A stretch of DNA of 64,000 bases. It comes from Gammaproteobacteria bacterium (GTDB taxonomy: Bacteria; Pseudomonadota; Gammaproteobacteria; Steroidobacterales; Steroidobacteraceae). Positions 1,593 to 39,679 of the stretch are shown here, in pieces; position 1 is the stretch's first letter; every line of letters begins with the position of its first letter. The DNA lies in assembly GCA_003164785.1 (NCBI GenBank), contig PLUE01000034.1, forward strand, positions 1 through 64,000, written 5' to 3'. The position numbers and the translations under genes were made by a program. The notes beneath the pieces are model-generated. The model was not told the DNA's origin. It searched no databases and saw nothing but the letters and a program-made list of their open reading frames with translations.

Positions 1593-3179
1593 ATGGGTGA
1601 TGCTTCTGACGGCGCCGACGGCGCAGTATTGCAGGCCGGGCATGGGCGCCGCCCCAGTGGCAGAGACGCGAAACGCGCGGCTCGAACAGCCCGCGCAGCG
1701 GCATCGATTCCCTACATCACGCGCAAGATCCCCTACTACGAGGTCCTGAGCGAAGAAGGGCTGTCGCTGCTCGAGCACAATGCGGACACCATTCTCGAGG
1801 ATATCGGCATTGATTTCCGCGACGACCCCGAAGCGCTCGAGATCTGGCGTGAAGCCGGCGCCGACGTCAGGGGCGAGCGTGTGCATTTTCCCCGCGGCAT
1901 GTGCCGCCAGCTGGTGCAGCGCTCCGCGCCGCGCGAGTTCACCCAGCATGCCCGCAACCCGGCCCGTAACGTTATCATCGGCGGGAAGAATACGGTGTTC
2001 GCCCCGGCCTACGGTTCGCCGTTCGTGCGCAGTCTGGACGAAGGCCGCCGCTATGCGCGGCTCGAGGACTTCCGCAATTTCGTAAAGCTCGCGTACATGG
2101 CCGGCTCGTTGCACCATTCCGGCGGCACCATCTGCGAGCCGGTCGATCTGCCCGTCAACAAGCGCCATCTCGACATGGTGTACAGCCACCTCAAATATAG
2201 CGATAAGGCCTTCATGGGCTCGGTGACAGCGCCGGATCGTGCGGCGGATTCGGTCGCCATGGCCAATATCACGTTCGGTGAAGAACCCGATCCGCTGACG
2301 GGCAGACCCAAAACGAGCCTCATCAATTTGATCAACGTGAATTCCCCCATGACTTACGACGCGACCATGCTCGGCGCCGCCAAGGTCTATGCCCGCGCCA
2401 ATCAGGCCACCATCATCACGCCTTTCATCCTCGCCGGCGCGATGTCACCGGTGACGGTGGCGGGCACCGTGGCGCAGACGCTGGCGGAGGCGCTCTCGGG
2501 GCTGGCGTTCGTGCAGCTGGTCAATCCCGGCGCACCCGTGGTGCTCGGCAGTTTTGCCTCGTCGATCTCGATGCAATCCGGAGCGCCGACTTTCGGCACC
2601 CCTGAACCGGCATTGGTGCTGTATGCGATGGCCGCGCTCGCACGCCGTGTGGGAGTGCCTTTCCGTTCCGGGGGCAGTCTGTGTGCCTCGAAGATCCCCG
2701 ATGCGCAGGCTGCATACGAGTCGGCCGACACGTTGCTCCCGACCTGCCTCGCGGGGGTGAATTTCGTGCTTCATGCGGCGGGCTGGCTCGAGGGCGGCCT
2801 GACCATGGGCTACGAGAAATTCATGATGGACGTGGACCAGACGGGCATGATGCACACGCTGCTCGCGGGCGTCGACCTGTCGTCGAACGGCCAGGCCATC
2901 GACGCCATCAAGGAAGTCGGGCCCGGCAAGCATTTCCTGGGATGCGCTCATACCCAGGCGAACTTCGAGAATGCCTTCTACCGTTCGCCGCTCGCCGACA
3001 ACAACAGCTGCGAGCAATGGGAGGCAGAGGGGTCACCCGACATGACCAAGCGCGCGAACGTGCTGTGGAAGAAGCAACTGGCGCAATACGTGGCGCCGCC
3101 GTTGGATCCGGCCATCGACGAGGCGTTGCTGGATTACATCGCGCGCCGCAAGGCGGCCGCACCCGATTCCAATATCTGA
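1593..3179 (+). CDS. MttB-family (trimethylamine methyltransferase-like) corrinoid methyltransferase, non-pyrrolysine, copy 1
   Basis: Belongs to the COG5598/MttB superfamily, whose members transfer a methyl group from methylated (often quaternary) amines to a cognate corrinoid protein. The 528-residue frame runs through without an internal UAG, so it is the non-pyrrolysine type; described relatives use glycine betaine, proline betaine or carnitine. Family-like segments include NVNSPMTYD, TPFILAGAMSPVTVAG, PGAPVVLGSF, FGTPEP and a C-terminal GKHFLGCAHT. The start is the ATG after GGGAG. It converges on the RamA-like gene with about 20 bases between, and its likely partners are the corrinoid protein and folate methyltransferase transcribed from the other strand. 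Substrate unknown; a second paralogue lies at 7822-9372. Confidence 0.88.
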   Translation: MGDASDGADGAVLQAGHGRRPSGRDAKRAARTARAAASIPYITRKIPYYEVLSEEGLSLLEHNADTILEDIGIDFRDDPEALEIWREAGADVRGERVHFPRGMCRQLVQRSAPREFTQHARNPARNVIIGGKNTVFAPAYGSPFVRSLDEGRRYARLEDFRNFVKLAYMAGSLHHSGGTICEPVDLPVNKRHLDMVYSHLKYSDKAFMGSVTAPDRAADSVAMANITFGEEPDPLTGRPKTSLINLINVNSPMTYDATMLGAAKVYARANQATIITPFILAGAMSPVTVAGTVAQTLAEALSGLAFVQLVNPGAPVVLGSFASSISMQSGAPTFGTPEPALVLYAMAALARRVGVPFRSGGSLCASKIPDAQAAYESADTLLPTCLAGVNFVLHAAGWLEGGLTMGYEKFMMDVDQTGMMHTLLAGVDLSSNGQAIDAIKEVGPGKHFLGCAHTQANFENAFYRSPLADNNSCEQWEAEGSPDMTKRANVLWKKQLAQYVAPPLDPAIDEALLDYIARRKAAAPDSNI

Positions 3180-3200
3180 CAGGTGCCTGCGGACCCTCGG

Positions 3201-5225
3201 CTAGATCTGCGGCATGGGAGCGCCGGGGGTGCGGCGGCGTCCGCGGGTTTCCGTTTGGCTGACGGATTCCTTGGGCGCGGGCAGGTCGACCGACCGACGC
3301 AGGTGCGGGAAGGGGGCGGTCTTGTGCGGCATGGCCATCGCCTCGACGAAGTGCTGCTGGAAGCCTGGCTCGACCGCCGTCTCCACCTTTTCGATTCGTC
3401 GGACCAGGCCTTCTATGACGGGTCGCGACGCGGCATCGAGCAGCGCGATGCACGCGCCGGTTCCTGCCGAGTTGCCGGCCGACTGAACCCGGGCCGGATC
3501 GCAGTCCGGAATCATGCCGAGGATCGTGGCGTATTTGACGTCGATATGGCTGCCGAAAGCGCCGGCCAGACGGATGCGATCGACCTGTTCGATCCCGAGC
3601 CGCTCCATGAGCAGCGCAATGCTGGCGTACAGCGCTGCCTTCGCCAGTTGGATCGCGCGCACGTCCGCCTGCGTGATCTTCATCTCGGTCATGCCTCGAT
3701 GCAGCACATACGCGAACGTCCTTCCGTTGGCGACGATCCGAGGCGATCGAGCCGCCATCCTGCCGTCGAGCACGCCATCCTGATTGATGATGCCGGCAAG
3801 ATACATTTCGGCGATGACTTCGATGATCCCGGAACCGCACACGCCGCTGATATCACCGAGCGCTGCCGCCCGCTCGAAGGCGGGATCGTCCGACCATAGG
3901 TCGGAGCCGATCACCTTGAAACGCGGTTCGAGGGTCTCGCGGTCTATGCGGACACGCTCGATTGCTCCAGGCGCCGCGCGTTGACCACAACTGATCTGGG
4001 CCCCTTCGAAGGCCGGGCCGGTGGGGCTGGAGCACGCGACCAGCCGCCGGTTGTTGCCGAGGACGATTTCCGCGTTCGTGCCGATGTCCACCAACAGGGT
4101 CATTTCCGGAAGAAGGTCGGGGCGTTCGGCAAGCACCATGCCCGCGGCATCGGCACCCACATGCCCGGCGATGCAGGGCAGGACGTATACGCGGGCATTG
4201 CGATGCAAATTCAGGTCGAGCACGCGGGCCCGCAGCGTCAACGATTGATCCAAGGCGAGGGCAAACGGCGCGCCGCCGAGTTCCACCGGATCGATTCCCA
4301 GCAACAGATGGTGCATGATCGGATTGCCGACGATGGTGGCTTCGAGGATGTCATCGCGGGAAACACCCGCCTTGCGCGCGACATCGGTGGCCAGGGCGCA
4401 CAGCGCTTCGCGCACCGCCGAGGTCATCTGCACGGCACCGCCAGGGTTCATCATCGCGTAGGACACGCGGCTCATCAAATCCTCGCCGAATCGGATCTGC
4501 GGATTCATGAGGCCCGCCGAGGCGACCACGTCACCGCTGCGAAGGTCGCACAGATGCGCGGCGATCGTGGTGGATCCGATGTCTAGGGCGAGTCCGTAGG
4601 CGAATTCGTGCAGGCCTGGCCATAGGCCGATGATCCGCGTTCCTGCGTGTACCGCCACGGTAACGCGCCAGGATCCGGCACGCAAGGTGGCCTGCAGCCC
4701 CTGTAGCACCGATAAATCGCACTTGAGGTCCTCTAGGCTCCATTCCGATGCGAGCGCATCGTACAGCCGGCGCAGGTCGCCCGAAGGATCCTGCATGTCC
4801 GGCTGTTCGACCTCGACGTAATGTAGGCGCACGACCGGGTTCAACTCGAGGACGCGCGCACCGGGCTCTTTACGCACCAGCTGTCGGTGGACTTGGCTGC
4901 CCGCGGGCACGTCGATGACCACGTCGGCCTCGATTCGCGCCGAACAGGATAGGCGCCTGCCGTCCGCCAACCGGCTGTGTCGCGCAAATAGCAGCTCCTG
5001 CTCGCCGGGCGGCGAGAGGCTTGCGCTCGAGGAGGCCATGCCGTGCTTGGCAAATTGGCCGTCCGCGACCAGAACCTGGCACCGTCCACACAGTCCCCGG
5101 CCGCCGCATACGGAATCGATGTCCACGCCCAGCATGCGCGCAGCCTGCAGCAACGGAGTACCGACCGGAAAGTGGCCGCGTTTGCCGGACGGTATGAAAA
5201 CCACGAGCGGAAAGTCGTCTGCCAT
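3201..5225 (-). CDS. RamA-like ATP-dependent reductive activator of corrinoid proteins (2Fe-2S plus ASKHA domain)
   Basis: Expected to return the inactive Co(II) corrinoid to Co(I), using ATP and electrons from an iron-sulfur centre. The start was set at MADDFPLVVF: the preceding 62 residues of the tracked ORF are Arg-rich, unlike the family, and overlap the upstream methyltransferase gene. Residues about 1-90 form a plant-type 2Fe-2S ferredoxin domain with CGGRGLCGRC and a later SCSA cysteine. The rest is the DUF4445/ASKHA activator region, with ALDIGSTTIAAHL, LLVDIGTNAEIVLG and RLAGAFGSHID. The C-terminal tail (about 30 residues) is Arg/Pro-rich. It is last in the minus-strand set mttB2, corrinoid protein, DUF1638, MeTr, activator, 19 bases after the previous stop. 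Confidence 0.9.
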   Translation of the reverse strand: MADDFPLVVFIPSGKRGHFPVGTPLLQAARMLGVDIDSVCGGRGLCGRCQVLVADGQFAKHGMASSSASLSPPGEQELLFARHSRLADGRRLSCSARIEADVVIDVPAGSQVHRQLVRKEPGARVLELNPVVRLHYVEVEQPDMQDPSGDLRRLYDALASEWSLEDLKCDLSVLQGLQATLRAGSWRVTVAVHAGTRIIGLWPGLHEFAYGLALDIGSTTIAAHLCDLRSGDVVASAGLMNPQIRFGEDLMSRVSYAMMNPGGAVQMTSAVREALCALATDVARKAGVSRDDILEATIVGNPIMHHLLLGIDPVELGGAPFALALDQSLTLRARVLDLNLHRNARVYVLPCIAGHVGADAAGMVLAERPDLLPEMTLLVDIGTNAEIVLGNNRRLVACSSPTGPAFEGAQISCGQRAAPGAIERVRIDRETLEPRFKVIGSDLWSDDPAFERAAALGDISGVCGSGIIEVIAEMYLAGIINQDGVLDGRMAARSPRIVANGRTFAYVLHRGMTEMKITQADVRAIQLAKAALYASIALLMERLGIEQVDRIRLAGAFGSHIDVKYATILGMIPDCDPARVQSAGNSAGTGACIALLDAASRPVIEGLVRRIEKVETAVEPGFQQHFVEAMAMPHKTAPFPHLRRSVDLPAPKESVSQTETRGRRRTPGAPMPQI

Positions 5226-5244
5226 GCGTCGCTCGACGTGGGAC

Positions 5245-6162
5245 CTAAACGGGCCGCCGCCGGTGTCCGCCTTCCCGGCGGCCGCGCACTGGCTCCGATC
5301 CCGCCGCGCCCGGCAATGGCGCCTCGCGGAACCTGCGAATCCAGCGGGCGCAGTCCGGATCATGGCCAAGCATGACATCGGCACCCAAGATGGCCTTGAC
5401 CACCTCGACATGCAGTGGATTGGTGATGGCGGAGGTCATGCCGGCGCTCATTGCCATCGTCAGAAAGGCGCTGTTGATGCCGTCCCGATTTGGCAGCCCA
5501 AAACTGATGTTCGAGGCTCCACACGAGGTGTTGACCTTGAGTTCGGTGCGCAGTCGATGCACCAGTCGCATCACCTGAACACCCGCCTGGTTGACGGCTC
5601 CGACGGGCATGACCAGGGGATCGACCACGACGTCGCATGCTGGGATGCCGTAATCGCTGGCGCGCTCGACGATCTTCCTGGCAACGGCGAAGCGCACGTC
5701 AGGATCCTGGGAGATTCCGGTCTCGTCGTTCGAGATTGCGATGACGGCGGCGCCATACCTTTTTATGAGCGGCAGCACGGCTTCCAGACGCTCGTCCTCG
5801 CCGGTCACCGAATTGACCAGCGCTTTTCCCTTGTATACCGCAAGTCCTGCCGCGAGCGCGGCAACGATGGACGAATCTATCGAGAGCGGCACATCGGTGA
5901 TGGATTGCACGAGCTGGATCGCACGCGCGAGAATCGCCGGCTCGTCCGCGAGCGGGATTCCCGCGTTCACGTCCAGCATGTGGGCGCCAGCCTCGACTTG
6001 CGCGTGCGCATCCGCCTCGACCCGGGTGAAGTCGCCGGCCGCCATCTCGGCGGCAAGGATCTTTCGGCCGGTCGGATTGATGCGCTCGCCTATGATGACG
6101 AAAGGTCGATCGAAGCCGATGACGACCTCCCTGGTGGCGGAACTGATCACGGTGTCGGTCAT
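5245..6162 (-). CDS. Methyltetrahydrofolate:corrinoid methyltransferase (pterin-binding, MtgA/AcsE-like)
   Basis: Predicted to move the methyl group from the methyl-corrinoid protein to tetrahydrofolate, feeding one-carbon metabolism (reversible in the family). The pterin-binding TIM-barrel signature is clear: VIIGERINPTGRK near the N-terminus, LDVNAGIP, DVPLSIDSS, ALVNSVTGE and the Asn/Asp-rich AAVIAISNDETG. NTSCGASNISFGLP matches the MeTr subgroup rather than dihydropteroate synthase. An AAGGACA ribosome binding site precedes the ATG. The C-terminal 25 or so residues (PGAAGSEPVRGRREGG) are basic and look like low-complexity extension. Its place between the corrinoid protein and the RamA-like activator supports the assignment. 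Confidence 0.9.
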   Translation of the reverse strand: MTDTVISSATREVVIGFDRPFVIIGERINPTGRKILAAEMAAGDFTRVEADAHAQVEAGAHMLDVNAGIPLADEPAILARAIQLVQSITDVPLSIDSSIVAALAAGLAVYKGKALVNSVTGEDERLEAVLPLIKRYGAAVIAISNDETGISQDPDVRFAVARKIVERASDYGIPACDVVVDPLVMPVGAVNQAGVQVMRLVHRLRTELKVNTSCGASNISFGLPNRDGINSAFLTMAMSAGMTSAITNPLHVEVVKAILGADVMLGHDPDCARWIRRFREAPLPGAAGSEPVRGRREGGHRRRPV

Positions 6163-30883: not shown

Positions 30884-31576
30884 ATGTCCATCGTCAAGAA
30901 CCAGCTTATCGAGAGCCTTCCGCGCAAGGAGCAAGCCCGCTTGCTCGGCGACTGCGAATTGGTGCAGTTGGTGTTGCAAGACGTGCTCTGCGAGCCTGGG
31001 CAGGTGGCCAAATACGCGTACTTTCCCACAGAGAGCTTCATATCGCTCATCACGGCGGTGGACGGAAAACCGGTCCTCGAAGTGGGAATGGTGGGACGCG
31101 AGGGCCTGCTTGGAGCGGAACTGGCCATGGGCGTAGGCGTCTCGCCGCTGCATGCGGTCGTGCAGGGTGCCGGCGGCGCCTGGCGGTTGGGCGCACGGCA
31201 ATTTCGAGCGGAGTTGAAGCGCAGCGCGCCGCTTCAGCAATGCATCGACCGGTATCTCTACGTCGTCATGGGGCAGCTCGCGACCTCCGCGGGATGCCTG
31301 CGATTCCACAATATCACCCAGCGCATGGCGCGCTGGTTGCTGATGACCCAGGATCGTGCCCTGAAAGACCAATTCCGCGTCACCCACGAATTTCTGGCCT
31401 TCATGTTGGGCGTGCGGCGGGTGGGAATCACCAATACGGCCAGCGAGTTACAACGTCGCGGTCTCATCCAGTATCGGCGCGGAGAACTTACGGTCTTGGA
31501 CCGGCCCGGTTTGGAGGCTGCCGCCTGCAGCTGCTACGAGGTGGACCGGCGCACCTATGCCGCGCTCCTGCATTGA
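30884..31576 (+). CDS. Crp/Fnr-family transcription regulator, copy 1
   Basis: A 230-residue regulator with an N-terminal cyclic-nucleotide-binding-like barrel (YAYFPTESFISLITAVDGKP, EVGMVGREGLLGAELAMGVG) and a C-terminal helix-turn-helix (THEFLAFMLGVRRVGITNTA, then LQRRGLIQYRRGELTVLDRP). There is no CxxC...C iron-sulfur set at the N-terminus, so it is not a classic Fnr oxygen sensor, and the cAMP-contact residues of Crp are not evident. The C-terminal LDRPGLEAAACSCYEVDR is shared with the paralogue at 33866. It may control the nearby cytochrome or lipid genes (inference). Confidence 0.87.
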   Translation: MSIVKNQLIESLPRKEQARLLGDCELVQLVLQDVLCEPGQVAKYAYFPTESFISLITAVDGKPVLEVGMVGREGLLGAELAMGVGVSPLHAVVQGAGGAWRLGARQFRAELKRSAPLQQCIDRYLYVVMGQLATSAGCLRFHNITQRMARWLLMTQDRALKDQFRVTHEFLAFMLGVRRVGITNTASELQRRGLIQYRRGELTVLDRPGLEAAACSCYEVDRRTYAALLH

Positions 31577-31588
31577 CAACGCTCCGAT

Positions 31589-31819
31589 CTATTTCGGCAT
31601 TTTGTTGCCGTTCGCCTTGAATTTTTCGCCGAGAGGCGTCAGTGCACCGCCGCCCTTGGGGTTGGTGTGACAATCCCCGCATGCCTTGCCCGTCTCGGTG
31701 CCAAATTGCGCCGTGGCGATCGCGGGCCGTGTGACTATCAATGTGAGCGCGCTGGCGACGACGATCGCGGCGGCCGTGCCCGTGGCGATCGCGAACGCGT
31801 TCCCTTTGGTGATTTTCAT
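31589..31819 (-). CDS. Small exported monoheme cytochrome-like protein
   Basis: A 76-residue protein with a signal anchor or signal peptide (FAIATGTAAAIVVASALTLI) and one heme site in GTETGKACGDCHTNPKGGGA, followed by LTPLGEKFKANGNKMPK. The order TGxxCxxCHT...LTPxGxxFKxNG is the same as in the N-terminal heme module of the 463-residue porin-cytochrome at 26951-28342, so this looks like a stand-alone copy of that module. It converges on the Crp/Fnr-like gene with 12 bases between. Role inferred: periplasmic electron carrier or partner. Confidence 0.78.
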   Translation of the reverse strand: MKITKGNAFAIATGTAAAIVVASALTLIVTRPAIATAQFGTETGKACGDCHTNPKGGGALTPLGEKFKANGNKMPK

Positions 31820-32132
31820 AATCGAGTTGTCCTTGAAAATTGTGAAGCCAACGCTCTGGTCGCGCGATTGACTAGTGAAGGCTCAAAGATTGGAGCACGA
31901 GAGGAGAATATAGACAATCACCCTCCGCGTCTGTGCGCTGTCGTACGGGGTCCCGTACCGCGGTGCGATGGGGTTCACGCCGACAGTGCGTTACCGGACG
32001 GACTTTCGCGGCCTCGCAGCATATCCTGCCACGAGGATCAGGTCGTCCTCGAGACGGCGTTTGGCGGAGCGCGCTTGCTCGACGAACTGGAGGACGATCC
32101 GCTGCCGCGAATTTGTTGACGCGGCATGCCGC
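31820..32132. other. Intergenic, no gene seen
   Basis: About 310 bases between the oleate hydratase stop and the small cytochrome start. Overlapping open frames exist on the plus strand, but none resembles a known protein. Confidence 0.45.
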
Positions 32133-33707
32133 TCATTCGAATGCCTTGATGAGCGCGTCGAATCGCGCGGCGAATGATTTGTCGTGGGGAGTCACCGGCG
32201 GAATCCCGCGCTCGATGGACAGGAGCGAATACACCGCCGTCTGCGCCGCGCGCACCGAATATTCCACCGTGAAGACGACATCGTCCGCGATCTCGACGAA
32301 TTGACTGACGAAGGCGAGATTCTTCGAGTCCTTGGGCACCGGGGGCGGCCGATCGCTGCGCGTGCGCGGCATGAACATGCTCGTGATGTACGGCATGCGG
32401 GAGGGGATGCAGATCGCGTCCGCGACGGTGTCCGGATCGAATCGCAGATGGCCGCAGAGTTCCTTCAGGATCTCCCGCCCATCGCAGTCGTCCATCGGCT
32501 TCGACACGAAATTGCCGACACGGTCCGGATACAGCCCATATCCCCAGAACACCTGCACGTCACGCGGCTGATCGATGAAGTGAGGTTGATGCGCGAGGAC
32601 GATGGACATGAGCCAGTTCGAATCCTTGAACGTGACCAGTCCGCCGGTACCTGGTTGGTTCTGGCTGAAGTTCGACATCTGGTCGAAGAAATATGACGAT
32701 TTCAACGTGACCGTGAATGATTCCCAGCACGATTGGGCGATGCACTGATTGAAGGCCTGCGGATTGCCGAAGTCGGGGCGGCCCTCCGCGAGGTTCTGCC
32801 AGAGGCTCCACCCGTTGCTGTGCGCCTTGTCGTGCTTTGCCGGCGGGGCGGTCATCGACCCCGCGCTCGAGTCATCGGTCATGGAGCCGTTCTGAATCAC
32901 CACCCAATCGTCATCGCCCACCGGGTAATGGTCGGTCACACCGTCATGCAGGCAACGCAGCCCGGTGACCACGAATTGTCCGTTCGCGTATTGGTGCTCG
33001 ACGCCGGTCACCGTGCACCCGGTGTTGAATTTGACGCCCTGCTCTTCGAGCCACTTCTGCAGGGGCCTTACCAGCGAGTCGTATTGGTTGTAGACCGTAC
33101 GCTTGACGCCCGCCAGAGTCTCGATGCGTGAGAACTCGAGCATGAAGCGATGCAGATAGCGTTTGAATTCGACGGCGCTGTGCCAGGGCAGGAAGGCGAA
33201 GGTCGTCGACCACATGAACCAGAAGTTCGTTTCAAAGAAGCTCGGCGAAAGCCAGTCCGTTATCCTGCTGTCGTTCAACTCATGCTCGTCCGCGTTCGCG
33301 AGCTTGAGCAGTTCCATCCGATCCCGCATCGAAAATCCCATCGACGTCACGGGCACCCGTGCGCGGCGTTTGTCGACGAGCCGCGCCTGGGAATGGGAGT
33401 GGTATTTGTCGTTGAAATCGATGGTCTCGTCGTACACCGACTTGCCGGTCTGCGCGAGGGACGGAATGCTCTTGAACAGATCCCAGGTGCACTCGTAGTT
33501 TTCGGTGGTGAACATGCGGCCGCCGCGCATCGAATATCCCTGCGCCGCATCACCCGATGCATCGAGGCTGCCGCCGAGGCGCGATCCCGCTTCGAAGATC
33601 ACGATGTTGCCGCCGGGCACATTGCCGTCCCGGATCATGAATGCTGCGGCTGCGAGCGATCCGATGCCCGCACCCACGAGATAGGCCTTGGATTGGTCAT
33701 GCGACAT
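32133..33707 (-). CDS. ohyA: Oleate hydratase (FAD-dependent fatty acid double-bond hydratase)
   Basis: Adds water to the cis-9 double bond of oleate to give 10-hydroxystearate. The start at MSHDQSKAYLVGAGIGSLAA has an AGGGAGA ribosome binding site; 41 upstream tracked residues are discarded. The FAD-binding GAGIGSLAAAAF and EAGSRLGGSLD open the protein. The catalytic loop reads RGGRMFTTENYECTWDLF, with Met where many hydratases have a Glu after RGGR, as I recall for the monomeric Rhodococcus-type enzyme. The 524-residue length also fits that shorter group. It is divergent from the second Crp/Fnr-like gene, which may regulate it. Confidence 0.92.
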   Translation of the reverse strand: MSHDQSKAYLVGAGIGSLAAAAFMIRDGNVPGGNIVIFEAGSRLGGSLDASGDAAQGYSMRGGRMFTTENYECTWDLFKSIPSLAQTGKSVYDETIDFNDKYHSHSQARLVDKRRARVPVTSMGFSMRDRMELLKLANADEHELNDSRITDWLSPSFFETNFWFMWSTTFAFLPWHSAVEFKRYLHRFMLEFSRIETLAGVKRTVYNQYDSLVRPLQKWLEEQGVKFNTGCTVTGVEHQYANGQFVVTGLRCLHDGVTDHYPVGDDDWVVIQNGSMTDDSSAGSMTAPPAKHDKAHSNGWSLWQNLAEGRPDFGNPQAFNQCIAQSCWESFTVTLKSSYFFDQMSNFSQNQPGTGGLVTFKDSNWLMSIVLAHQPHFIDQPRDVQVFWGYGLYPDRVGNFVSKPMDDCDGREILKELCGHLRFDPDTVADAICIPSRMPYITSMFMPRTRSDRPPPVPKDSKNLAFVSQFVEIADDVVFTVEYSVRAAQTAVYSLLSIERGIPPVTPHDKSFAARFDALIKAFE

Positions 33708-33865
33708 GCGGGTCTCCCTGATGTGAATGGGCAGCTTCTCACCTACAGTGTATGTGGTCTGGAATTGACTGTCTGTGCGGTAGCCGATGCCGCCGACAGG
33801 TTGGTGCGATACGGCACAGTGCGGAATCAATCAGGCTATAGTCAGGTGCCATTCCTCGCCGGACG

Positions 33866-34591
33866 ATGTCATTGGAACCAAAATTCGACCCCAAGCAGAA
33901 TCATCTTCTCGCAGTGTTGCCGGATGCTGCGTGGCGGATGTGGGCACCGCATCTGCAGCCCGTGGAATTGAAGCTCGGGCAGGTGCTGAGCGAGTCGGGT
34001 TCGACACTGACCGACGTCTACTTTCCGACCACGGCGATCGTCTCGCTGCTGTACGTGATGGAAAACGGATCGTCCGCAGAAATCGCGGTCGTGGGCAATG
34101 AGGGGGTGGTGGGCGTGTCGCTCTTCATGGGTGGCGCATCCACGCCGAGCCGCGCGGTGGTGCAGAGCGCCGGGTCTGGCGTCCGGCTCGCCAACCGGTA
34201 CATGATGGTGGAGTTCAACAAGGCCGGTCCCGTCCTGCATCTGTTGCTGCGCTATACCCAGGCGCTCATCACTCAGATGGCGCAAACGGCCGTGTGCAAC
34301 CGACATCATTCGCTGGATCAGCAACTTTGCCGTTGGTTGTTGTTGAGTCTCGACCGGTTGCAGGGTAGTGAATTGGTGATGACGCAGGAACTCATCGCCA
34401 ACATGCTCGGCGTGCGCCGGGTCGGCGTGACCGAGGGGGCGCTGAAGCTGCAGAAAGCGGGATTGATCAGCTATTTTCGCGGACATATCACCGTGCTGGA
34501 CCGGCCCGGTCTCGAGAACCGGACCTGCGAGTGCTATAGAGTCGTGAAGACGGAATACGACCGTTTGCTGCCTGCATTGAAGGCCGGTTAG
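33866..34591 (+). CDS. Crp/Fnr-family transcription regulator, copy 2
   Basis: A 241-residue paralogue of the 30884 regulator. Effector barrel: LGQVLSESGSTLTDVYFPTT and AEIAVVGNEGVVGVSLFMGG. DNA-binding part: MTQELIANMLGVRRVGVTEG, then LQKAGLISYFRGHITVLDRP and GLENRTCECYRVV. Both proteins have the VYFPT..IVSL, VGxEGxxG and LDRPGLExxxCxCY patterns of the group often annotated Crp/Fnr in proteobacteria, with no iron-sulfur cysteines in the N-terminus. It lies divergent from ohyA (about 160 bases between starts) and upstream of the acyltransferase, so fatty-acid-related control is plausible but inferred. Confidence 0.87.
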   Translation: MSLEPKFDPKQNHLLAVLPDAAWRMWAPHLQPVELKLGQVLSESGSTLTDVYFPTTAIVSLLYVMENGSSAEIAVVGNEGVVGVSLFMGGASTPSRAVVQSAGSGVRLANRYMMVEFNKAGPVLHLLLRYTQALITQMAQTAVCNRHHSLDQQLCRWLLLSLDRLQGSELVMTQELIANMLGVRRVGVTEGALKLQKAGLISYFRGHITVLDRPGLENRTCECYRVVKTEYDRLLPALKAG

Positions 34592-34676: not shown

Positions 34677-35528
34677 ATGGTTAAATTCCTGTCGCGCCTG
34701 CCGATGTGGGTGCTCTATGCCGTTTCCGGATTTCTTTACCTTCTCGCCTATTACGTGGTGCGGCACCGTCATCGGGTGATCGAGGACCAGATCGCGCAGG
34801 TGTTTCCGCAGGCGAGCGCCGGCGAGCGCACCACCATCCACAAGAATTTCCTGAAGAATTTCTGCGACGTCCTGGTCGAGGTGCTCAAGTCCGCGTCCAT
34901 GGGCGCCGCGGAGCTGGGCGCGCACGTGCATCTGGTCAATCTGCCGGTGGTGCGTGGTCATTTGGATTCGGGCCGGTCGGTGATGTTGGTGACATCCCAT
35001 CTGTGCAACTGGGAATGGCTGCTGCAGGGCATTGCCGTGCAATTGGGTTTTCCGATCGACGCGGCCTACAAGCCGCTGCACGATCAATGGGCGGAGCGGC
35101 TGATGCTCGGCATTCGTTCCCGGTTCGGCGCGCGATTGGTGCCGGCGAAGGAGTTGCTGGGCGACATCTTGAAACGCCGCGCCGTCGTCCGTGCCGTGGC
35201 CATGAACGCGGATCAGGCGCCGGTGTCGACCGATAAGCGCTATTGGACCCAGTTCCTGGGCCAGGACACGGCTTTCTACATGGGCGCGGAACAGATTGCC
35301 CGCGCGACCCGGCTGCCGATGATCTATGTGGTCATGCGGCGCACGCGGCGCGGGTATTACGAGGTCGAATTCCAGCGGTTGTGGGACGGGCGGGAGTCCG
35401 TGCCGCCGAATGGCATCACCGAGCGCTATGCGCGGGCCTGCGAAATCGACGTGCTCAAGAGTCCGGCTGACTGGCTGTGGTCCTACCGCCGCTGGCGGCT
35501 CAAAAAAACCTTGTATGGGATTGATTGA
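34677..35528 (+). CDS. LpxL/HtrB-like lysophospholipid or lipid A acyltransferase
   Basis: A 283-residue inner-membrane acyltransferase. It has an N-terminal membrane anchor (WVLYAVSGFLYLLAYYVV) and the family's HX4E-type catalytic motif in TSHLCNWEWLLQG, with YKPLHDQWAERLMLGIRSRF and a DQAPVSTDKRYW acceptor-side loop. E. coli LpxL/LpxM are about 306-323 residues, so this is slightly short but complete. Its neighbours (fatty acyl-AMP ligase-ACP, P450 and a second acyltransferase) suggest the acyl donor could be a modified acyl-ACP. It is convergent with the ligase gene. The core lipid A role is an alternative. Confidence 0.87.
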   Translation: MVKFLSRLPMWVLYAVSGFLYLLAYYVVRHRHRVIEDQIAQVFPQASAGERTTIHKNFLKNFCDVLVEVLKSASMGAAELGAHVHLVNLPVVRGHLDSGRSVMLVTSHLCNWEWLLQGIAVQLGFPIDAAYKPLHDQWAERLMLGIRSRFGARLVPAKELLGDILKRRAVVRAVAMNADQAPVSTDKRYWTQFLGQDTAFYMGAEQIARATRLPMIYVVMRRTRRGYYEVEFQRLWDGRESVPPNGITERYARACEIDVLKSPADWLWSYRRWRLKKTLYGID

Positions 35529-35554
35529 GGAGCTTCGGCGCGGGTGCCTTGCGT

Positions 35555-35584
35555 GGTATCGGGTGCATCGACAACTGCGATACC
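35555..35584. terminator. Weak inverted repeat between convergent acyltransferase and ligase genes
   Basis: GGTATCG...CGATACC with a 16-base loop lies between the two convergent stops. No T-run follows on either strand, so it is at best a weak bidirectional terminator. Confidence 0.3.
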
Positions 35585-35611
35585 TTCGCCGTGGGCTCGC
35601 TGTAGACCTCG

Positions 35612-37582
35612 CTACGCGGCCGGCACCGGCTGGCTCAGTTTATTCTCGAGATGCTTGGCCAGTTCGGCGATGGTCGGATGATCGAACAACTCGGTCAGGT
35701 CGATCATCCCGGGAAAATCGTGTTCGATGTTCTCGTGGATCTCGATCAGCTTGAGCGAGCTCGCGCCGATGTCGAACAGATTGTCCTGAACGTCGACGCG
35801 CTTGCCGGGCAGGGCGTTCTCGCAGATCGCCTGCAGTCTCGATTCGAGATCGTTGCCGTTCACCGCAACCGCGCCGCCCTGGGCGTCGCGCAAGGCCTGT
35901 AGCTCGGCGAGTTCCGCGTCGAACTCGCCCTCGATATGCGAGGTCTCCAGCAGGTGACGTTGCACCTTGCCGCTGGTGGTCTTCGGGATCCGCTTGACGG
36001 GAATCACCTGCGCGACCTCGAGGCCGGTGTGCTCGTTGATGAGCCGGCTCACCGCCGTCGCGATCGGCAGGAACTCAGGGATGCCGCCACGGTGCAGCAC
36101 GAACACCACGAGTTCCTCGCCCTGCGCGCCGGGCTTCGCGACGCCGGCGGCGACGACCTTGTTGAGGTCGAGGCCGGGAGCGCGTTGCGCGATGTTCTCG
36201 AGGTCGTAGGGGTAGTAGTTCAGACCATTGATGAAGATGATTTCCTTCGTGCGGCCGGCGATATGGAGATTGCCTTCGTGGACCACGCCGAGATCGCCCG
36301 TGTCGAGCCAGCCATTCGCATCGATGGCGAGTGAGGTGGCCTCGGCATCGCCGTAATAGCCCTGCGTGACGCTCTTGCCGCTGATCAAAATGTGCCCGAC
36401 CTGGCCGTCGGGAAGCACCTGTCGGGCGGCATCGGTCACGCGGACATCGATGCTGGGCACCGGGCGGCCGACGCTCATGAGCTCTAGCACGTCGCGCGTG
36501 TCCGCGGGATTGAGCTCGATGGCGGCGCCGACGCCGAGTTTGCGGCGATTGACGCGAATCCATCGATAATCCACGCCGGGCTGGGGGAAGGTCACCGCGA
36601 GGCTGGCTTCCGCCATGCCGTATACCGGGAACATGGCATGATGCTTCAAGCCCGTATACGCCAGCTTGGCCATGAATTCGTTGCACAGTGCGACCGAGAT
36701 CGGCTCGGCGCCGTTGTAGATGGAGCGGATGCTCGACAGGTCGACGTTCTCGAGCTTGCGGTCGCCGAGCACCTTCAAAAAGTGCCGATAGCCGAAGTTG
36801 GGGGAGCAGGTGATGGTCGCGCGTTTCTTCGACGCGATCAGCATCCACAACAACGGGCGTCGCACGAACACATCGGTGGGCATCAGATTGATGTGCACGT
36901 GCTTGTTGAACTGCATGATGAAAAAACCGATGAGCCCCATGTCGTGCGTCAGCGGCATCCAGCTCAGCGACACGTCCTCGCGGTTGTACTTGTCGACCAT
37001 GGCGGCGCCCTCGGAATTGGCGAGCAGGTTCTCGTGGGTGAGCATCACGCCCTTGGGCTCGCTGGTCGATCCGGAGGAGAACTGAATGAACGCGAGATCG
37101 CCCGGCGCGGAGCGGTACACCTTGCCCGGCTTCGAAATGTCCGTCAGCGATTCGACCAGGAACACGCGGGTTTTGAGGTCCGCGAACAGCGCCATCTCGC
37201 CGACCTGGGCCGCCAGAGCGGACAGACGCTCGAGCGTTTTGGCGTCGGTGTACAGATAAGCGTTGCCCAGCTTGCGCGCCACCCGCAACAACTTGTATCG
37301 GTGTTCATCGCTGATCCCCACGGCCAGGGGAACCGGGACGATGCCCCCGCAGACCGCCGCCCAGAAGCCGTCGATGAACTGCTCGTTGTTGTTCAGGAAA
37401 ATGATCAGCTTGTCGCCGCGCTGCGCGCCCAGGGCTTGCAGGTGATGCAGGATGCCGAGCGCACGGGTGTACAGGTCGCCGTAGCTCACCCGGCGCTCGG
37501 AGTTCTCACCGTCGACATACGTGACCGCGCGATCCACGGTGCGATTGTTCTCGATCATTTCCAGCAAAGTCGTATTCGTCAT
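35612..37582 (-). CDS. Fatty acyl-AMP ligase fused to an acyl carrier domain
   Basis: A 656-residue two-domain enzyme. Residues about 1-560 are an adenylating domain of the FAAL type: FIQFSSGSTSEPKGVMLTHE, LPLTHDMGLIG, YGMAEASLAVTFPQPG, WLDTGDLGVVHEG and GRTKEIIFINGLNYYPYDLE, ending with the PKTTSGKVQR loop. Residues about 575-650 are a phosphopantetheine-binding domain with attachment Ser in DIGASSLKLIEI. It should activate a free fatty acid as acyl-AMP and load its own carrier. Its ATG overlaps the P450 stop (ATGA), so the two proteins are co-produced. No ketosynthase or NRPS module is nearby, so it is not a polyketide starter in this locus. Confidence 0.9.
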   Translation of the reverse strand: MTNTTLLEMIENNRTVDRAVTYVDGENSERRVSYGDLYTRALGILHHLQALGAQRGDKLIIFLNNNEQFIDGFWAAVCGGIVPVPLAVGISDEHRYKLLRVARKLGNAYLYTDAKTLERLSALAAQVGEMALFADLKTRVFLVESLTDISKPGKVYRSAPGDLAFIQFSSGSTSEPKGVMLTHENLLANSEGAAMVDKYNREDVSLSWMPLTHDMGLIGFFIMQFNKHVHINLMPTDVFVRRPLLWMLIASKKRATITCSPNFGYRHFLKVLGDRKLENVDLSSIRSIYNGAEPISVALCNEFMAKLAYTGLKHHAMFPVYGMAEASLAVTFPQPGVDYRWIRVNRRKLGVGAAIELNPADTRDVLELMSVGRPVPSIDVRVTDAARQVLPDGQVGHILISGKSVTQGYYGDAEATSLAIDANGWLDTGDLGVVHEGNLHIAGRTKEIIFINGLNYYPYDLENIAQRAPGLDLNKVVAAGVAKPGAQGEELVVFVLHRGGIPEFLPIATAVSRLINEHTGLEVAQVIPVKRIPKTTSGKVQRHLLETSHIEGEFDAELAELQALRDAQGGAVAVNGNDLESRLQAICENALPGKRVDVQDNLFDIGASSLKLIEIHENIEHDFPGMIDLTELFDHPTIAELAKHLENKLSQPVPAA

Positions 37583-38874
37583 CGTAGGGCTACCGTCATC
37601 ATGAGATTGGAGCGGGGCCGCAGATTGATCTGCGCCTCGAGTTCGATCGGTTCGTCGCTGGCGCGCGTCAGTCGGAAGCGTTGCGACATGCGGTGCACGT
37701 GCACCAGCATTTCAAACATGGCCAGGCCTTCGCCGATGCAGTGCCGGGGACCGACCGCGAAGGGGATATAGGAAAACCGGTGGCGTTCCGCCGCGTCCAC
37801 GCCGGCGAAGCGCTCGGGCTTGAATTCTTCGGCGTCGCTCCAGAACGCGGGGTGACGGTGCAGCATGTACGGACTGATGAACACATCGCTGCGGGGGCCG
37901 ATGGCGTAACCGCCGAGTTCGTCCGCCTCGATCGTGCGGCGCGTGAGCAGCCAGCCGGGCGGGTACAGCCGCAGGGCTTCCTGGATCACTTGATGGGCAT
38001 AGGACAGCGACTCGGCCGCATCGAGCCCCAGCCGTTCGGCGGTCACCCGGTCGGATTCGCTTTCCAGGGCCGAGGCGACCCCGGGATGCTGGCTCACCAG
38101 GTACCAAGTCCAGGTCAAGGCGGCGGCCGTGGTCTCGTGGCCGGCGACGATCAGCGTGAGGACTTCGTCGATCATTTCCTTGTCGGCCATGGGTTCGCCG
38201 CTGTCCCGGTCGCGTGTGGCCATGAGCATGGCGAGAAAATCGAAATGCGCCTCGGGCTCGCGGCGACGCCGTTGAATGACCTCGGCCACCAACTTGGCCA
38301 GCGAGCGAAACCGGAACGCGAATTTCAGGTCGCGGTTGGTCTCCTTGGCCACCACCTCGAACGGGTTGGCGCCCATCTGCTGCTCGATGCGGGCGAGGTC
38401 GCTGCCGAAGATCGATCGCAGGACGATTTCCAGGGTCAACTCGCTGACGTCGTCCGTGAGATTGATGGGTTCGCGGCGCGCGGCGCTGGCGGCCCAGCGC
38501 TCGGCGAACTTCTCGTTCACCTCGTCGATCAAACCAGCGAACTGGTCGATGACCCGGCGGTGAAACGCCGGCTGCATCATGCGTCGCTGGCGGCGCCAAA
38601 AGTCGCCTTCGCTGGTCATGATGCCGTTGCCGAGCAGGATCTTGACGCGATCCATGCCCTCGCCCTTGGTGTAGTTGCGATGGTTGGACAGGAGCACGCG
38701 CTTGATGTCGTCGGGGTGGTTGATGACATAGTTGTAGACGCCGCGGCTGGGGGCGAACACGCGGTACGTGTCGCCGAATCGGCCAAAACAGTCTCGCATC
38801 AGCGCCAACGATTCATCACTCCCACCGAGATCGAAGCCGTCGGTGGGGCCGGGGGGCAGGGCCATGGTTTGCAT
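37579..38874 (-). CDS. Cytochrome P450 (class with AGHETT I-helix)
   Basis: A 431-residue soluble P450 starting MQTMALPPGP (a second Met three codons in is an alternative). Features are the I-helix oxygen-activation motif LIVAGHETTAAALTW, the K-helix ExxR in QEALRLYPPGW, and the heme-thiolate Cys in FAVGPRHCIGEGLAMFE. WRRQRRMMQPAFHRRVIDQF is a typical C-helix region contacting the heme. It is first in a two-gene operon with the fatty acyl-AMP ligase-ACP, with overlapping stop and start. A likely substrate is therefore a fatty acyl chain held on that carrier, by analogy with BioI acting on acyl-ACP (inference). No ferredoxin gene is adjacent. Confidence 0.92.
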   Translation of the reverse strand: MQTMALPPGPTDGFDLGGSDESLALMRDCFGRFGDTYRVFAPSRGVYNYVINHPDDIKRVLLSNHRNYTKGEGMDRVKILLGNGIMTSEGDFWRRQRRMMQPAFHRRVIDQFAGLIDEVNEKFAERWAASAARREPINLTDDVSELTLEIVLRSIFGSDLARIEQQMGANPFEVVAKETNRDLKFAFRFRSLAKLVAEVIQRRRREPEAHFDFLAMLMATRDRDSGEPMADKEMIDEVLTLIVAGHETTAAALTWTWYLVSQHPGVASALESESDRVTAERLGLDAAESLSYAHQVIQEALRLYPPGWLLTRRTIEADELGGYAIGPRSDVFISPYMLHRHPAFWSDAEEFKPERFAGVDAAERHRFSYIPFAVGPRHCIGEGLAMFEMLVHVHRMSQRFRLTRASDEPIELEAQINLRPRSNLMMTVALR

Positions 38875-38929
38875 CCGCTATTGTAACGTAGGCGGGTGGG
38901 TATTGCGGTGGGGGGCGCCGTTCCCGACA

Positions 38930-39679
38930 ATGACGGCTGTGCAGAAAAAACCCGGCGCGCCTCTTCGCAATACGATCTACGAACAGCAAACGGCCTCGGG
39001 ACGCCGGCTGACCGCGGGCCGCCTATTCCTCTACCGGTGCATCGTGCCGCTGGGAATCGCCTTGATTCGCCTCGTATGGCGGTCCTCGCGGGTGGTCAGC
39101 GTCACCGGGTCCGACCATATCATCGCGGCACTCGCGCGTGCGCCATCGTTCATCCCGGTGTATTGGCACCAACATCAGCTGTTTTGCGTGCGGCAATTGC
39201 TGGCGCTGCGCGGTGCCGGGGTCAAGCTGGGGTTTTTGATCAGCCCCTCGGTGGATGGCGAACTCGGGGCCATGATGGTGCGCAGATTGGGCGCCCTGGC
39301 CATCCGTGGGTCGTCGACCCATACCGGGGCGAGGGCGCTGCGGGATTATTACCAGGCGCTGTCCCATGACGATGTGTCGCCGGCGATCACGCCGGACGGG
39401 CCGCGGGGTCCGCCTTGGAAGTTCAAGCCGGGCGCCGTGCTGCTGGCCCAGTTGTCCGGGCGGCCGATCATCCCCATGGCGTACGCCGCGTCGCGGGCCT
39501 GGAGAATCAAGTGGGATCGCTTCGTGATCCCGAAACCGCTGTCGCGCATTGCCATCGTGATTGGCGAACCCGTCTATGTACCCAAGGGGTTGGACGCGGC
39601 GGCCCTTGAGGGGTTCCAATTGCAGATGGAAGGGCGGCTGCACGCACTGTATGGCCAGGCAAGAAACGCGCTGGGGTAG
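38930..39679 (+). CDS. DUF374-type lysophospholipid acyltransferase
   Basis: A protein of about 249 residues from MTAVQKKPGAPLRNTIYEQQ; the tracked ORF's first 54 residues overlap the divergent P450 gene and are not family-like. The N-terminal hydrophobic stretch LFLYRCIVPLGIALIRLVW anchors it to the membrane. WHQHQLF, FLISPSVDGELGAMMVRRLG and ITPDGPRGPPWKFKPGAVLL are the DUF374 signature, related to the PlsC acyltransferase fold. Together with the LpxL-like enzyme at the other end of the cluster it could transfer the modified acyl chain to a lipid. The acceptor is unknown. Confidence 0.87.
   Translation: MTAVQKKPGAPLRNTIYEQQTASGRRLTAGRLFLYRCIVPLGIALIRLVWRSSRVVSVTGSDHIIAALARAPSFIPVYWHQHQLFCVRQLLALRGAGVKLGFLISPSVDGELGAMMVRRLGALAIRGSSTHTGARALRDYYQALSHDDVSPAITPDGPRGPPWKFKPGAVLLAQLSGRPIIPMAYAASRAWRIKWDRFVIPKPLSRIAIVIGEPVYVPKGLDAAALEGFQLQMEGRLHALYGQARNALG

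Follow-up and report, generated by a model that had tools for sequence, protein, structure and literature searches.

A gene set of a DUF374 acyltransferase, a cytochrome P450 and a carrier-fused fatty acyl-AMP ligase conserved in Gammaproteobacteria, with a possible role in acyl tailoring

Genes at the locus

The window, the whole 64,000-nucleotide stretch of DNA that was analyzed, is part of a host assembly of 5.85 Mb in 75 contigs. The closest named relatives of the host are uncultured Gammaproteobacteria, part of which are labelled Steroidobacteraceae. A sequence-only reading had described four genes in the middle of the window: an LpxL-like acyltransferase, a fatty acyl-AMP ligase (FAAL) with its own carrier domain, a cytochrome P450, and a DUF374 acyltransferase. 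All four were present on the strands given there, with the Pfam matches listed in Table 1, and the reported ATGA overlap of the FAAL and P450 genes was seen in the sequence, the P450 being the upstream gene of the pair. The start of the DUF374 gene had to be moved: the in-frame GTG at 38768 falls inside the divergent P450 gene, and the likely start is the ATG at 38930, from which the protein is of the same length (249 aa) as in relatives. With this start, the P450 and DUF374 genes are divergent and separated by a short gap. The annotated neighbouring genes in the window included no PKS, NRPS, or ketosynthase, as had been claimed, and FabH occurs only in another family (f7, see below).

Table 1. 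Features of the locus (positions in the window)
Feature	Position	Strand	Details
LpxL-like acyltransferase	34677..35528	+	283 aa; HX4E motif H108-E113; PF03279 1.2e-26; facultative neighbour
FAAL-ACP (fatty acyl-AMP ligase with C-terminal acyl carrier domain)	35612..37582	-	656 aa; Lys539 catalytic; PF00501 4e-54, PF00550 1e-11
Carrier domain within the FAAL protein	35648..35812	-	residues 591-645; phosphopantetheine Ser609; PF00550
ATGA overlap (4 nt) of P450 stop TGA and FAAL start ATG	37579..37582	-	from sequence
Cytochrome P450	37579..38874	-	431 aa; upstream member of the P450-FAAL pair; PF00067 8.9e-73
Short intergenic region between divergent P450 and DUF374 starts	38875..38929	.	shared promoter region likely; from coordinates
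DUF374 (LpxJ-family) acyltransferase	38930..39679	+	249 aa; PF04028 2.9e-18; re-assigned start ATG 38930

The encoded proteins

By sequence comparison, the ligase is an AMP-binding fold protein with FAALs as its nearest relatives. Its FAAL domain matched the sequences of FAAL structures in the PDB (3pbk, 1.6e-68; 3kxw, 3.2e-62), and the single best PDB match of FAAL-ACP was the McyG adenylation-carrier protein. The best NCBIfam match, fatty acyl-AMP ligase NF006624, fell short of its 600-bit cut-off with 357 bits. An insertion-like region (residues ~333–370) aligned without gaps to EcFAAL and with gaps to McyG in a sequence alignment. The SSGST motif and the catalytic lysine are kept in the sequences of relatives, and the carrier serine is conserved in 99% of 148 sequences. 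The protein is similar to known FAAL and carrier loading modules (mycobacterial FadDs, EcFAAL, and lipopeptide starters; PMC8460268) in sequence, active site, and the carrier fused downstream; it differs from them in having a P450 and a lipid acyltransferase as partners instead of a PKS or NRPS, and in scoring below the curated NCBIfam FAAL cut-offs. The domain architecture and the known activity of FAALs (PMC8460268) suggest that the FAAL domain loads its built-in carrier.

In the P450, the heme ligand Cys379, the acid-alcohol pair E247/T248, and the ExxR residues E299/R302 were invariant in 129 sequences. Its AlphaFold model (mean pLDDT 75.7) was weaker than that of the DUF374 protein. Nearest to it in fold were CYP97, CYP184A1, for which a structure with oleic acid also exists, and the fatty-acid hydroxylase BM3; sequence and fold together placed CYP97, CYP184, and CYP102 as neighbours. 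No redox partner was seen in the cluster. From the overlapping genes and their co-inheritance (see below), the P450 probably acts on a carrier-bound chain. Genetic coupling to a carrier protein is shared with BioI, which acts on acyl-ACP, and with other P450s on carrier-bound substrates, but the window P450 is not close to BioI in sequence, and BioI was absent from its best 60 sequence matches. In one related locus (L033, 4556–6875), two tandem P450 genes, with 80% and 65% identity to that of the window, precede the FAAL gene.

DUF374 proteins are often annotated as lysophospholipid acyltransferases and, to our knowledge, most of them are without a tested function. In 133 sequences of the DUF374 protein studied here, W79, H80, D156, and W195 were present in all, D196 in 131, and D109 in 126. 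These residues (W79-H80, D109, D156, W195-D196), paired by motif and not by an LpxJ alignment, match the six shown to be essential in the Rickettsia LpxJ (W60, H61, D86, D132, W172, and D173; PMC6148475), and the conserved signature is of the LpxJ type, not HX4D. The first PDB fold matches of the AlphaFold model (mean pLDDT 84.8) were LpxM and PatA with a TM of about 0.5, and therefore only the fold superfamily was assigned. By sequence, a weak PDB match was obtained to a PlsC (5kym, E 0.056). The protein thus shares with the LpxJ late lipid A acyltransferases (PMC6148475) the DUF374 domain, the six essential residues in nearly all copies, and an LpxM/PatA-like fold; unlike in LpxJ, its gene has a dedicated FAAL-ACP and a P450 as linked neighbours, and lipid A activity is a candidate function.

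In the LpxL-like protein, the HX4D/E motif is conserved (H108 in 53/53 and E113 in 52/53 sequences, with D in the remaining one), and all of its NCBIfam LpxL scores were under the cut-off. The host genome encodes a separate canonical LpxL (G000:C29:263638) with a far better PF03279 match (7.1e-66, compared with 1.2e-26), for which reason the window gene was rejected as the main late lipid A acyltransferase of the cell.

Conservation and variable neighbours

The window genes were compared by tblastn with 27 loci of related genomes, and the arrangement of DUF374, P450, FAAL, and LpxL-like genes was found in most of the genus. Across 80 named loci, the genes usually ran as GGDEF-EAL, optional glycosyltransferases, DUF374, and an optional phosphopantetheinyl transferase (PPTase) on one strand, followed by P450 and FAAL on the other; after FAAL came an LpxL-like gene on the opposite strand, the series FUR-MFP-RND-LpxL on the FAAL strand, or NadC on the opposite strand. 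The FUR regulator, MFP, and RND transporter genes, which lie on one strand between FAAL and the LpxL-like gene (L083, L084, L090, L093, L096, L099, L103, L110, L111), were treated as local.

Among 196 genomes of the order, FAAL was found in 71, P450 in 65, and DUF374 in 81. The P450 gene was directly upstream at 63/74 FAAL matches, the aligned ends being 0–129 bp apart, and of the 66 P450 matches 63 adjoined a FAAL; a divergent DUF374 gene lay within 4.5 kb at 61 of the 74 FAAL matches. Fisher tests gave values of 1e-37 to 1e-42, relatedness being ignored in both tests and counts. Beyond the family of the window, three families of the order (f5, f7, and f15) have FAAL, P450, and DUF374, and the remaining sampled families were negative for all three. 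In the other families, the P450 was found at 27/31 and DUF374 at 27/29, and DUF374 was almost exclusively in FAAL-bearing genomes.

In a sample of the class, FAAL was found in 27/369 genomes. When 20 class-level loci were read, the P450 was directly upstream of FAAL in 16 and a divergent DUF374 upstream in 14, while in three further ones (L212, L217, L221) DUF374 was downstream of FAAL. Protein distances of FAAL, P450, and DUF374 were correlated with r = 0.92–0.94 across 90 loci and 0.77–0.87 across 12 class-level loci. Among 399 genomes of the phylum, one weak match (35% identity) lay outside the Gammaproteobacteria. The gene set is real and widespread, occurring in many gammaproteobacterial families of soil and water bacteria.

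The search for the same neighbourhood in related genomes, which the sequence-only reading had proposed, therefore did not bear out a neighbourhood lost in relatives: DUF374, P450, and FAAL are kept across families, as one unit without a PKS or NRPS and with catalytic residues retained in every enzyme. Such conservation across families excludes a chance association. A further possibility is that the neighbours were kept by descent without a common pathway, and the GGDEF-EAL, NadC, and glutaredoxin genes are likewise syntenic in Steroidobacteraceae. Those genes, however, are lost in other families, where DUF374, P450, and FAAL stand together in new surroundings; the genes around the trio differ from family to family, which is evidence against simple synteny, and gene-order inertia is considered very unlikely. 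GGDEF-EAL, NadC, and glutaredoxin, syntenic only within the window's family, were rejected as module parts.

An Sfp-type PPTase, not mentioned in the earlier reading, is beside the module in 16/63 named loci (L078, L088, L091, L100, L105–L109, L119, L121, L129, L131, L133, L136, L139) and 7/20 class-level loci (L203–L205, L207, L212, L217, L221), usually between DUF374 and P450. Its residues D126, E128, and K169 are invariant. It is absent from the window's locus, and the host genome encodes PPTases elsewhere. As the trio is found again in other, unrelated families and gene contexts across the Gammaproteobacteria, often with a PPTase, the core is DUF374/(PPTase)/P450/FAAL-ACP.

The LpxL-like gene had been counted as an equal member of the cluster, and this did not hold. 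Its orthologue was found in 27 of the 196 genomes of the order, all in the window's family, where seven FAAL genomes lack it and seven genomes have it without FAAL; it was therefore rejected as a core part. Because it is not tied to FAAL there, yet an LpxL-like gene immediately follows FAAL in two other families (L210 and L216), it is an optional, lineage-specific partner. Steroidobacteraceae genomes that lack P450-FAAL (L226–L228, L231) still have the DUF374 gene at the same place in the chromosome, so this gene is independent of the pair and must also use another acyl donor.

FAAL occurs without P450 in several f7 genomes and in L138–L140, and the f7 genomes that have lost the P450 retain FAAL, most of them together with FabH and DUF374. 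A radical SAM/SPASM protein takes the place of the P450 in three loci (L113, L125, and L137), where it precedes a FAAL-ACP that belongs to the same subfamily. An oxidation step is therefore not obligatory, and tailoring by the P450 is the step that is lost most readily. In 16 loci of f7 (L143, L150–L153, L157, L159, L160, L163, L164, L166–L168, L170, L171, L048), a FabH-type ketoacyl-ACP synthase III directly follows FAAL, and the loaded acyl group may therefore be elongated there. Two of the P450-less loci (L138 and L140) have FAAL and DUF374 beside xanthomonadin/aryl polyene-like genes; their neighbours encode flavin halogenase-like, FkbO/Hyg5-like chorismatase, GT2, AMP ligase, and LpxL-like proteins.

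Possible pathway and relation to known systems

The gene content, conserved linkage, co-inheritance, conserved catalytic residues, and DUF374 fold superfamily are the observed basis for reading the genes as one acyl-tailoring and transfer module, in which a chain would be loaded, oxidized on the carrier, and transferred to a lipid. We give this reading roughly even credence. A PPTase, encoded inside the module in many relatives and probably elsewhere in the host genome, would arm the carrier domain; that many relatives have one of their own in the module agrees with a step of carrier loading. The FAAL domain would then turn a free fatty acid into acyl-AMP and load its own C-terminal carrier, bypassing CoA. 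The co-translated P450 would oxidize the acyl chain, most simply by hydroxylation and probably while it is carrier-bound. The LpxJ-type DUF374 protein would transfer the modified chain to a hydroxyl group of a lipid, with lipid A or its precursor as the first candidate, and the LpxL-like enzyme, where present, may be a second acyltransferase of certain lineages. The acyl transfer by DUF374 is suggested by linkage and LpxJ chemistry; the substrate, the on-carrier oxidation, this transfer, and the acceptor are what we infer in the module, and lipid A as the acceptor is the least secure step. The full route in Gammaproteobacteria, from an exogenous or salvaged fatty acid through the dedicated carrier and P450 hydroxylation to LpxJ-type attachment to lipid A, is put forward tentatively. 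If it is true, the outer membrane gains an oxygen-dependent acyl modification.

The main alternative is that the product is a free oxidized fatty acid or a small secondary metabolite, such as a signal, surfactant, or acyl-amide, and that the acyltransferases are linked for other reasons. FAAL products usually go to a PKS or NRPS (PMC8460268), and the FabH genes of f7 and the P450-less loci beside xanthomonadin/aryl polyene-like genes would suit such a product, but no release thioesterase, PKS, or NRPS constantly adjoins the module, and in most families the module is linked to a DUF374 gene, whose product is of a lipid acyltransferase family and varies in step with FAAL and P450. We regard this alternative as rather unlikely. 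Remodelling of lysophospholipids or other glycerolipids, with DUF374 re-acylating a phospholipid, not lipid A, with the oxidized chain, would agree with the common annotation of DUF374 proteins and with the weak PlsC match; it appears unlikely given the LpxJ signature in place of HX4D (PMC6148475), the best fold matches to LpxM and PatA, and the glycosyltransferases that flank DUF374 in several lineages. These are of the GT2, GT39-like, or GT9 type, and their position beside DUF374 in some relatives is expected for a surface glycolipid.

A pimelate route, in which the P450 cleaves a carrier-bound fatty acid to pimeloyl-carrier for biotin, would be provided with its acyl-ACP substrate by a carrier-fused ligase, as used by BioI, but is extremely improbable, as the host genome has a BioC above the curated cut-off (G000:C69:102491), none of the genes identified at the locus is a biotin gene, the P450 neighbours are other than BioI, and the DUF374 linkage is left unexplained.

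For the tailoring and transfer module, two further systems are comparable. In aryl polyene and xanthomonadin clusters, an AMP ligase, a carrier, and an LpxL-like acyltransferase are clustered, and some relatives of the module adjoin such a cluster, but the module is without the ketosynthase, dehydratase, and ketoreductase set. In the AcpXL-LpxXL system of rhizobia, a dedicated carrier brings an oxidized very-long-chain acyl group to lipid A, an idea that the module resembles, but no AcpXL elongation genes are at the module, and activation would be by FAAL from a free fatty acid. Each enzyme family is known; no description of the combination DUF374/P450/FAAL-ACP was found in open-access papers. 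A stand-alone FAAL-carrier kept with a P450 and a lipid acyltransferase in many families points to an undescribed lipid of the membrane or surface in bacteria that are common in soil and fresh water, and provides a partner-gene lead for DUF374 proteins. If the module reading is true, fatty-acid salvage, oxygen-dependent tailoring, and envelope acylation are united in one compact pathway.

Elsewhere in the window, an oleate hydratase of the MCRA family (32133–33830, reverse strand; above the NCBIfam cut-off) is flanked by two Crp-like regulators (30884–34591). These three genes are not kept beside the module in relatives and were rejected as pathway parts. At 1593–5411, a trimethylamine-methyltransferase-family protein (MTTB) adjoins a RACo-like corrinoid activation protein.
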